Positions 11,322-13,727 of a stretch of DNA of 64,000 nucleotides are shown one piece after another (the stretch's first letter is position 1; each line of letters begins with the position of its first letter). A program made the translations under genes and the position numbers. The notes below the pieces were generated by a model. It saw only the letters and a program-made list of their open reading frames with translations. It was not told the DNA's origin and ran no database searches. The stretch is from NCBI RefSeq assembly GCF_007829525.1, contig NZ_VLJP01000078.1:68042-132041 (forward strand). The letters run 5' to 3'. The stretch is from Mesorhizobium sp. J18 (GTDB lineage Bacteria > Pseudomonadota > Alphaproteobacteria > Rhizobiales > Rhizobiaceae).

Positions 11322-13727
11322 ATGCCCGATCTTCTTCTCGAACTACGCTCCGAGGAAATTCCCGCACGCATGCAGCGAAAGGCGGCGGGCGACCTTCGCA
11401 AACTGGTCACCGACGGCCTTGTCGATGCCGGGCTGACCTATGAAGGCGCGCAGGAATACTGGACGCCGCGCCGGCTGGTGCTCGATGTCCGCGGTGTCAC
11501 CGCGCGTTCCAAGGACGTGCGCGAGGAGCGCAAGGGACCGAGCACGAAAGCGCCGGAGCAGGCGATCCAGGGTTTTCTGCGCTCGGCCGGGCTGAATTCG
11601 GTCGATGAGGCCGAAGTGAAATCCGATCCCAAGAAGGGCGATTTCTATGTCGCGGTCATCTCGAAGCCGGGCAGGGCGGCCGAGGAGATCATCGCCGAGA
11701 TGATGCCGCGCATCATCCGCGATTTCCCCTGGCCGAGATCCATGCGCTGGGGCGCGGCTTCGGCCAGTCCCGGCTCGCTGCGCTGGGTGCGCCCGCTGCA
11801 GTCGATCGTCTGTACCTTCGGCCCGGAGACCGAGGAGCCGATCGTCATCGATTTCGAGATCGACGGCATCCGCGCTGGCAATGTCACCTACGGCCATCGC
11901 TTCCATGCGCCGGAGGCCATCACCGTGCGCCGCTTCGAGGACTATGCCGCCAAGCTGGAAGCGGCGAAGGTGATCGTGGACGCCGAGCGCCGCAAGCGGA
12001 TCATTCTGGACGATGCGCGCAATCTTGCCTTCGCCAATGGCCTCGAACTGGTCGAGGACGAAGGGCTTCTGGAGGAAGTTTCGGGCCTTGTCGAATGGCC
12101 GGTCGTGCTGATGGGCGAGTTCGAGGAGGAATTCCTGGAAATTCCCGCCGAGGTCATCCGGCTGACGATCCGGGCGAACCAGAAGTGTTTCGTTTGCAGC
12201 CCGCAGGATGCGCACCCCGCCCCGGCGCTACGCGCTGACCCTCCCCATGGAGGGGAGGGTAAAGTCGCGGCCGGTCTTGCCTCCCCCTCTGGTGCGGGAG
12301 GGGGTGAAGCAGTGCTTTCCAACCGCTTCATCCTCACCGCCAATATCGAGGCCAAGGATGGCGGCAAGGAGATCGCCTTCGGCAACGGCAAGGTCGTGCG
12401 CGCCCGCCTTTCCGACGCGCTCTATTTCTGGAAGACCGATCAGGCGGACCTGCCCGATCTCGACCGGCTGAAGGAGTCGGCGGAAAAATTCGGACTGGAC
12501 CTGAAGAAGCCTCTCGACCAGCGCATGGCGCGACTCGATCATCTCGGCGTCACCTTCCATGCCAAGCTCGGCACGCAGGGTGAACGCGTGGAGCGTATCC
12601 GCCGTCTGGCGCGCGAACTGGCGCCGATCGTGGCACGCTCTTTCACCTCCCCCTTGAGGGGAGGTCGCAACGCCGAGCAAGGCGAAGGCGGCGCGGGCGG
12701 AGGTATTTCTGGTGCCGTCACCCCCACCCCGGACCTGCGGTCCGACCCTCCCCTCAAGGGGGAGGGTGAGGACCTTGCCGCCCTTGCCGAGCGCGCTGCC
12801 GTTCTCGCAAAGGCCGACCTGCAGACCGAAGTCGTCGGCGAGTTCCCCGAGTTGCAGGGCGCGATGGGCCGCAAATATGCGACGCTGCAGGGGGAGCATG
12901 CCTCCGTAGCCGCCGCGATCGAGGAACATTACAAGCCGCTCGGCCCCTCCGATATCGTGCCGACCGATCCGGTGTCCGTCGCAGTCGCGCTCGCCGACAA
13001 GCTAGACACGCTGGTCGGCTTCTGGGCCATCGACGAGAAGCCGACGGGCTCGAAGGATCCCTATGCGCTACGCAGGGCTGCTCTGGGCGTGATCCGGATT
13101 GTAGTGGAGAATGGGGTGCGGCTGGAGCTATTGAAGCACTGCCGACAGGCGGCCATTCTGGTTTTAGAGAATCCAAACGGGATTGCTGGACCGGGCATTG
13201 GTGCTGTGCCGGATCTCCTCTCTTTCTTCCATGACCGCCTGAAGGTCTATCTGCGCGACAAGGGCGCGCGGCACGACCTGATCGATTCCGTCATCACGCC
13301 GGAGGCGGACGACCTGTTGTTGATCGTCAGCCGTGTGGCCGCGCTGGGCTCCTTCCTCGACACCGAGGCCGGGAAGAATCTGCTCGCCGGCACCAAGCGC
13401 GCGGCGAACATTCTTGCCGCCGAGGAGAAGAAGAAAACGCGCGTCGCCGATGCCGTCGATCCGGCCCTTCTCACCGAAAAGGCCGAGATCGCGCTGTTTT
13501 CGGCGGTGAATCAGGCTGAGAAGGAAGCCGCCCAAGCTATTAAAAACCAAGACTTTTCCGCCGCCATGGCCGCGCTTGCAGCATTGCGTGAACCCGTTGA
13601 TTCATTTTTCGAGGAGGTTCTCGTGAATGTTGAAGACGAAGCCGTGCGGGCGAACCGTCTGGCGCTGCTGGAGCGCATCCGCAGCGCAACGGCGCAGGTC
13701 GCGGATTTCTCCAGGATAGCAGGCTGA
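11322..13727 (+). CDS. glyS: Glycyl-tRNA synthetase beta subunit with two in-frame palindromic-element insertions
   Basis: GlyS binds tRNA(Gly) and completes the alpha2beta2 synthetase. The start (MPDLLLELRSEEIPARMQRKA), NVTYGHRFH, RANQKCFV, GNGKVVRARLSDALYFWKTD, TLQGEHASVAAAIEEHY and the C-terminal anticodon-binding part are family-typical. At 801 aa it is long. About 35 residues (296-330) lie between QKCFV and LSNRFIL, and about 44 residues (440-483) between LAPIVA and DLAALAERAA. Both segments are Gly/Pro/Ala-rich, lack family similarity, and are encoded by palindromic repeats. The frame stays open through both, so the gene is probably functional with two extra surface loops. Confidence 0.95.
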   Translation: MPDLLLELRSEEIPARMQRKAAGDLRKLVTDGLVDAGLTYEGAQEYWTPRRLVLDVRGVTARSKDVREERKGPSTKAPEQAIQGFLRSAGLNSVDEAEVKSDPKKGDFYVAVISKPGRAAEEIIAEMMPRIIRDFPWPRSMRWGAASASPGSLRWVRPLQSIVCTFGPETEEPIVIDFEIDGIRAGNVTYGHRFHAPEAITVRRFEDYAAKLEAAKVIVDAERRKRIILDDARNLAFANGLELVEDEGLLEEVSGLVEWPVVLMGEFEEEFLEIPAEVIRLTIRANQKCFVCSPQDAHPAPALRADPPHGGEGKVAAGLASPSGAGGGEAVLSNRFILTANIEAKDGGKEIAFGNGKVVRARLSDALYFWKTDQADLPDLDRLKESAEKFGLDLKKPLDQRMARLDHLGVTFHAKLGTQGERVERIRRLARELAPIVARSFTSPLRGGRNAEQGEGGAGGGISGAVTPTPDLRSDPPLKGEGEDLAALAERAAVLAKADLQTEVVGEFPELQGAMGRKYATLQGEHASVAAAIEEHYKPLGPSDIVPTDPVSVAVALADKLDTLVGFWAIDEKPTGSKDPYALRRAALGVIRIVVENGVRLELLKHCRQAAILVLENPNGIAGPGIGAVPDLLSFFHDRLKVYLRDKGARHDLIDSVITPEADDLLLIVSRVAALGSFLDTEAGKNLLAGTKRAANILAAEEKKKTRVADAVDPALLTEKAEIALFSAVNQAEKEAAQAIKNQDFSAAMAALAALREPVDSFFEEVLVNVEDEAVRANRLALLERIRSATAQVADFSRIAG
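12207..12311. repeat. Palindromic element inserted in frame in glyS (copy 1)
   Basis: Two hairpins lie inside the coding sequence. The first has a perfect 9-bp stem, ACCCTCCCC (12238-12246) with GGGGAGGGT (12252-12260) and loop ATGGA. The second has a 7-bp stem, CCCCCTC (12283-12289) with GAGGGGG (12298-12304). The segment encodes glyS residues of about 296-330 without a stop. Its 5' half (CACCCCGCCCCGG, then CGCGCTGACCCTCCCC) matches the 3' half of copy 2. Boundaries are estimated from where GlyS similarity stops. Confidence 0.8.
12639..12770. repeat. Palindromic element inserted in frame in glyS (copy 2)
   Basis: An 8-bp stem, ACCTCCCC (12645-12652) with GGGGAGGT (12658-12665), opens the element. 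A 9-bp stem, ACCCTCCCC (12745-12753) with GGGGAGGGT (12759-12767), closes it. The two ends are also roughly complementary to each other. About 132 bp are added in frame, encoding glyS residues 440-483. It resembles the intergenic palindromic elements of rhizobia and Brucella in design, but sits in a gene. Confidence 0.82.

Follow-up and report, generated by a model that had tools for sequence, protein, structure and literature searches.

In-frame palindromic repeats in glyS of Mesorhizobium sp. J18 belong to a probable hotspot of recurrent insertion in the GlyS loops of Hyphomicrobiales

How does a hairpin-rich segment come to lie in frame inside glyS, the gene for the beta subunit of glycine--tRNA ligase, in Mesorhizobium sp. 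J18? The gene occupies positions 11322–13727 on the plus strand of a 64,000-nucleotide stretch of contig NZ_VLJP01000078.1 (hereafter the window), and its 801-residue product was assigned to GlyS by Pfam PF02092 (E 2e-169) and NCBIfam TIGR00211, the single GlyS match that a genome search returned for the 4.26-Mb draft genome. An original prediction had placed such a segment at 12207–12311, and this was confirmed: the frame of the gene is open, and both expected stems were located, a perfect 9-bp stem at 12238–12260 (ACCCTCCCC-ATGGA-GGGGAGGGT) and a 7-bp stem within 12280–12304. We conclude that this segment of ~105 bp, insert A, which encodes DAHPAPALRADPPHGGEGKVAAGLASPSGAGGGEA, is very probably part of a dispersed palindromic repeat lying in frame in glyS, likely through a transposition-like insertion of a non-autonomous element resembling repetitive extragenic palindromes (REPs) or miniature inverted-repeat transposable elements (MITEs), and that it is predicted to form a disordered surface loop if translated. 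It is not one stray insertion; it is one case of a recurrent hotspot for several repeat families. The segment is a genomic repeat, it is absent from most GlyS examined and leaves the frame open, and three GlyS loops hold at least five families, which turn over between proteins of 97–98% identity.

As a description of one element, the predicted coordinates stood in part. The hairpins are there, but insert A is a composite of an F1-type right arm (families are defined below) and a second, shrunken hairpin, and the same composite order in the peptide (HPTPxLRxDPPHxGEG ... SPSDGGGRxExAGGG) recurs in the relatives P0006, P0022, and P0118. The complete F1-type element is a second copy in the same gene, insert B (12644–12769, plus strand; ~126 bp), which encodes TSPLRGGRNAEQGEGGAGGGISGAVTPTPDLRSDPPLKGEG and carries a left hairpin (12645–12665) and a right hairpin (12745–12767) in inverted arms of 33 nt that are 82% complementary. 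A repeat search of the window picked up, of these hairpins, only this arm pair (among inverted repeats), and the hairpin family was not among the 20 listed of at least 60 direct-repeat families. Rfam matched nothing in glyS up to E 1. Folded as DNA, insert A gave a z-score of -3.2 (1 of 200 shuffles was equally stable), and with RNA parameters a 93-nt version gave z -3.4 and a 120-nt version z -1.74; insert B reached z -3.1 and -4.6 in two tests. Neither insert is part of the GlyS core. Between NQKCFV (residues 286–291) and LSNRFIL (residues 332–338), J18 GlyS has 40 residues, and the modal length of this gap is 9 residues, found in 128 of the 225 GlyS proteins described below, so that the excess comes to ~31 residues.

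That insert A is a repeat and not native coding sequence, as had been proposed, was supported by its distribution in the J18 genome. Used as a BLAST query, it found five genomic places, that is, four others besides itself, and the pattern CCTCCCC-N3..12-GGGGAGG occurs at 29 places, compared with 2 for a reversed control. Inverted hairpin pairs spanning ~120–140 bp were found at L120, L125, L129, and L132; the outer feet of the hairpins are mostly GTAA or GTGA and the inner ones mostly GTCG. By reading of open reading frames (ORFs), supplemented with Pfam and NCBIfam for the ATPase, the copies in genes comprise three glyS hairpins, one in ileS, and one in the linker of a double ABC ATPase; by ORF reading alone, the remaining hairpin copies fall where no gene is recognisable or at the ends of contigs. 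F1 alone is plentiful in this genome, where F3 gave one weak match and F4 and F5 none.

To place the J18 inserts among relatives, we aligned 225 GlyS proteins, 105 of them from the window and genome loci and 120 from a protein search (the best 120 of 7999). This set consists of the nearest relatives by search and is thus biased, and it counts the window protein twice (as window and as P0001); window copies (L001, L006), duplicates (L048, L094), and pieces at contig ends (L012, L016, L032) were dropped before counting. The relatives found belong to Hyphomicrobiales. Element-type peptides were present at three sites, in 43 proteins at site A (after NQKCFV), in 105 at site B (after LAxELAP), and in 39 at site D (after HDLIDAV; 13284–13319 on the plus strand of the window, empty in J18 as DSVITPEADDLL), whereas 177, 111, and 184 proteins, respectively, had short loops there. 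With 177 of the 225 proteins short at site A, and with further copies elsewhere in the genome, neither of the two conditions named as refuting the original prediction held. At least five peptide families, labelled F1 to F5 by us from peptide patterns, occupy these loops: F1 (SPLRGGRAEGAGGG...PPLTPPxKGEG or HPTPALRxDPPxxGEG), F2 (ISPLEGEM...PSALPGISPSRGEI), F3 (GPSGHLLPxGEK...SPLVGEG), F4 (PREERGEG...LRGEGKGEG), and F5 (HPEVRAERASKD). Site A is filled by every labelled family except F4, site D by every one except F5, and site B by F1, F2, and, in a single case, F3. The families are abundant in their host genomes, with 136 (L047), 122 (L036), and 49 (L064) matches per genome for F2, 60 for F3 (G032), 42 for F4 (G030), and 56 for F5 (G158), although these counts take in both strands of palindromes and correspond to fewer actual places.

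Fold comparison of the window and locus-derived genes supported the palindromic nature of these fillings. Among segments of at least 27 residues, z fell below -2 relative to dinucleotide shuffles in 10 of 14 at site A, 6 of 10 at site B, and 15 of 15 at site D, and the same numbers had stems of at least 7 bp. In G158, the F5 insert folds into a single long hairpin (z -10). Exceptions to the strong fold at A or B were mostly native long loops without a palindrome (L011, L023, L028, L078, L102) and included J18 insert A (z -1.74 in this comparison); at site B, L069 had a weak peptide match scored as F1 and no strong fold. As an internal control we used site C (13116–13211, plus strand), a hypervariable loop without element peptides. 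Between GVIRIVVENG and DLLSFFHDRLK this loop ranges from 11 to 115 residues across the 225 proteins, with unrelated and mostly non-palindromic content. Site C was rejected as a palindrome site, with z below -2 in 4 of 64 segments and an element peptide in 0 of 225 proteins, even though 13 of 64 had a stem of at least 7 bp.

Closely related proteins differ in what these loops contain. An empty (P0067) and an F2-filled loop (P0036) were found at 98.4% core identity, an empty loop (P0089) and a one-hairpin stub (P0095) at 97.9%, and F1 (P0002) and F5 (P0008) in the same loop at 97.0%. By peptide, fillings are stacked in P0005 at site B (F1 and F3) and in P0118 at site D (an F2 end and F1), and one-hairpin stubs were seen in G085, G108, G120, and G145. 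A FastTree phylogeny of the GlyS core requires at least 24 changes of presence at site A, 17 at site B, and 17 at site D; for family state the corresponding figures are 32, 19, and 27. Since the set of 225 is biased towards relatives, an even sample was taken from one Mesorhizobium genus group (that of L036), a group of 99 genomes that gave 96 complete GlyS (the sample did not include G086 and G129, and G155 had no complete GlyS frame). At least 41 of the 96 carried an element-type peptide (7 at A, 28 at B, and 23 at D), and in 15 of these more than one site, up to all three, was occupied. This is a lower bound, because remnants or an F5 variant (G066, G085, G108, G145, G158) escaped the peptide patterns. 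The hairpin pattern itself occurred 134 times in G046 and 89 times each in G058 and G008.

In the AlphaFold2 model of J18 GlyS, the predicted local distance difference test (pLDDT) score fell below 50 at residues 302–327, 447–476, and 576–578, that is, nearly only in the two inserts, which would accordingly be disordered loops of the predicted protein. In lineages with filled loops, the ratio of nonsynonymous to synonymous substitution rates (dN/dS) was 0.04–0.18 in the core and 0.18–1.28 in the insert, in keeping with inserts that are tolerated.

Elements of the same kind were also found in other proteins. J18 IleS contains an F1-type half element (L119, L146) with a 9-bp stem and z -1.7, and IleS of G032 contains an F3 element in the same alignment column. 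In G032, the F3 copy at GlyS site A is 92% identical to the copy at site D and 90% identical to the IleS copy; the next best F3 copy listed, on another contig, reaches 83%, and GlyS and IleS lie ~42 kb apart. These copies in genes seem to form a group of their own, and in this one genome the pattern would fit either copies in genes giving rise to further copies in genes or local conversion. They are located on contig C1 at ~1.68–1.73 Mb (L007, L174). With an F1 peptide profile run on eight genomes, the candidates listed included a DNA polymerase I linker (G028), a hydantoinase A–B linker (G007), and a type ISP restriction enzyme (G031). Under a strict rule (stem of at least 7 bp and z below -2; best 30 loci per protein), inserts were scored in 8 of 30 GlyS (three of the 30 being contig-end pieces), 1 of 29 IleS, and 0 of 29 PolA, which, from three proteins, suggests that GlyS is unusually tolerant. 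The count of 0 for PolA reflects the column method, since the PolA linker varies throughout the set; inspection by eye found element peptides in two of the 29 linkers (L206, L208). A separate observation concerns the single-contig genome G033, in which a polA match (C1:555903–558440, L211) contains one in-frame TAG.

Further copies in J18 and on plasmids deserve mention. At L118, L122, L124, L127, L137, L139, and L140, several of which are at contig ends, the hairpin sits inside a longer repeat with flanks CGGTACCGCACC... and ...GGCAAGGCGGCAG; this longer repeat seems to break the assembly, and it is possibly a larger mobile unit with one arm. At L133 (G000:C37, ~1665–1683), the start region of an ABC-type ATPase frame reads through the hairpin (MQASPSPQGGGERNA...), a possible N-terminal extension derived from the element. 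A plasmid search with the element peptide returned 60 records, and among the 40 listed three matches fell under a named gene (two hutH and one ribonucleotide reductase, with weak E-values), the others being under no named gene or in unannotated records. Upstream of glyS in the window, the ORF at 9577–10731 reads like an alpha subunit, judged from its translation.

Taken as a mechanism, the data would be explained if non-autonomous hairpin elements, mobilised by some enzyme, inserted throughout the genome, and if copies in genes persisted only when their length keeps the frame, their reading frame is free of stops, and the loop is distant from important parts. Sites A, B, and D of GlyS would be such tolerant loops and would therefore be colonised repeatedly. 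Two like hairpins of one element might then recombine or slip, deleting the middle and leaving an in-frame one-hairpin stub. A broader proposal, to which we give even chances, is that the three GlyS loops are a standing landing strip in Hyphomicrobiales, where at least five families enter, stack, replace one another, and collapse in frame, even between lineages 97–98% identical, G032 looking as if frame-open copies breed more copies in genes. Several observations weigh against insertion by a mobile element. No transposase came to light, although no search aimed at one was made. Comparison of filled and empty loci in the Rhizobium tropici/lusitanum group and in Mesorhizobium, whose flanks are diverged, revealed no target-site duplication, and in filled versus empty genes the native codons at the junctions are partly replaced, beyond simple splitting. 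The fold of insert A was weak in one of its three tests (z -1.74), and that of insert B in a third test (z -0.4), where the alignment cut had removed its right end. Parsimony on the core tree is unable to tell gains from losses. In G008, 89 hairpins go together with a GlyS (L013) that has no insert at any of the three sites; insertion into GlyS is therefore not predicted by abundance alone. Finally, all 18 like-placed (non-independent) pairs showed a lower synonymous divergence (dS) in the insert than in the core, which is unexpected from plain neutral decay.

If the hairpins were domesticated, selection on DNA or mRNA structure in glyS (e.g., pausing or mRNA stability) would keep them, and sites differed accordingly less often in stem columns (54 of 942) than in the rest of the insert (373 of 1827) or at fourfold sites of the core (2172 of 6391), with paired changes in the inner stems of L061 versus L059, L062, and L064. 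However, stem columns were picked because at least half of the rows pair there, a choice that favours conserved positions, re-seeding by fresh copies or gene conversion gives the same prediction, the stub of G145 has a decayed stem, and the majority of GlyS examined lack the element; we regard domestication as unlikely. A single ancient insertion per loop, inherited vertically and then lost or diverged past recognition in most lineages, is the reading preferred for the Rickettsia families RPE-4, RPE-6, and RPE-7 (PMC3767692). It would account for the dominance of one family at site B (F2, 83 of 225) and for the LxxG...N residue frame common to the fillings of site D. Yet one loop holds different families at 97.0% and at 93.6% core identity, empty and filled states occur at 98.4%, some fillings look tandem or nested from their peptides (P0005 at B, P0118 at D), each family is a genomic repeat in its own right, and insert dS is lower than core dS in all 18 pairs, so that we hold this history to be very unlikely.

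Two further readings would do without mobile repeats in GlyS. Native loops under selection, for instance for contacts with tRNA or a partner, might look repeat-like merely through GC-richness, and their persistence in many species, like the long non-palindromic loops at A or B in L011, L023, L028, L078, and L102, is what one would expect of them; with dozens of matches elsewhere in the same genomes, the same peptides in IleS, PolA, and linkers, an insert dN/dS well above that of the core, low pLDDT, and a control loop C that is mostly non-palindromic, this is highly improbable. The inserts might also be assembly artefacts at hairpins: several elements lie at contig ends of the draft assembly, and glyS of G155 (L247, L339) shows element arms, an ambiguous base beside one of them, and a broken frame. 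Nevertheless, G033, whose genome is a single contig, also has in-frame inserts (L009), as do 41 of the 96 assemblies sampled from one genus group, and we consider it barely conceivable that assembly produced them. A dispersed, inserted palindromic repeat thus remains our preferred explanation.

The original prediction had likened insert A to Rickettsia palindromic elements (RPEs), and the likeness was upheld, since the repeat is dispersed, palindromic, and in frame in a core gene found once. RPEs and the Wolbachia palindromic elements are palindromic repeats of ~100–150 bp, comparable to the 126 bp of insert B with its inverted arms and the ~105 bp of insert A. Some RPEs lie in frame in core genes that are unrelated to one another, such as those for isoleucyl- and phenylalanyl-tRNA synthetases, at solvent-exposed positions (PMC3767692); in J18 the genes are glyS (twice), ileS, and that of the ABC ATPase, and the GlyS inserts are of low confidence and unstructured in the AlphaFold2 model. 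The host order differs, the relatives being Hyphomicrobiales, and on this taxonomic ground the elements probably stand outside the Rickettsia RPE families. In the R. japonica study, same-site inserts were present in all orthologues aligned, and common origin was favoured for three families with hotspots left open (PMC3767692), whereas rhizobial GlyS loops swap families among near-identical genes. GTAG- and CGTC-tagged REPs are short hairpins, often in inverted pairs, some of them in ORFs of several species, where genes for tRNA synthetases and for DNA polymerase I are affected, and recB of two Xanthomonas carries a REP at about the same site; GlyS is not named among such cases in the available part of that paper (PMC3733652). 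Membership of the J18 hairpins in this group was rejected, as a tag lay within 6 nt in just 2 of 28 distinct hairpins. Dispersal and terminal inverted repeats (the 33-nt arms, 82% complementary, and the inverted pairs L129 and L132) recall MITEs; no target-site duplication was seen between filled and empty loci, whose flanks are diverged. The Rhizobium-specific intergenic mosaic elements (RIME), reportedly described by Osteras in 1995, come from a rhizobial lineage and are ~108 bp long with two palindromes. Compared by description only, RIME differs in being intergenic (PMC2573895), and the J18 elements occur in ORFs; the positions given for Br-REP (PMC5082802) and RIME are intergenic or within 3' untranslated regions, and the Caulobacter element CIR is reported as strictly intergenic (PMC10969869), again unlike the J18 elements. 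According to the same 2024 review, RPEs are unusually frequent, and similar protein evolution elsewhere is conceivable (PMC10969869). The original prediction also knew of no common description for this lineage. This holds for palindromic inserts in rhizobial GlyS, for which we found none in the open-access literature searched, most subscription papers lying outside it; repeats within genes, tRNA synthetase genes included, are on record outside Rickettsia (PMC3733652). Because repeats in genes have been described for Rickettsia and several other species, the kind is already known. What appears to be new, within the literature searched, is that such elements occur in genes of a rhizobial lineage and, more important still, that several families reuse the same loops of a single core enzyme in Hyphomicrobiales.

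In summary, GlyS has likely been a repeated target of mobile DNA whose translation is predicted to give disordered surface loops, and an essential enzyme is probably made longer in this way. It follows as a warning that differences in GlyS length within Hyphomicrobiales often reflect repeat insertions. In rhizobial GlyS the same loop can be found filled, empty, filled by another family, stacked, or collapsed, and the bacteria are culturable, so that the question raised in Rickettsia, of hotspots versus a single old insertion, becomes directly testable. If the loops are indeed a standing landing strip, mobile hairpins would keep supplying an essential enzyme with new disordered loops.

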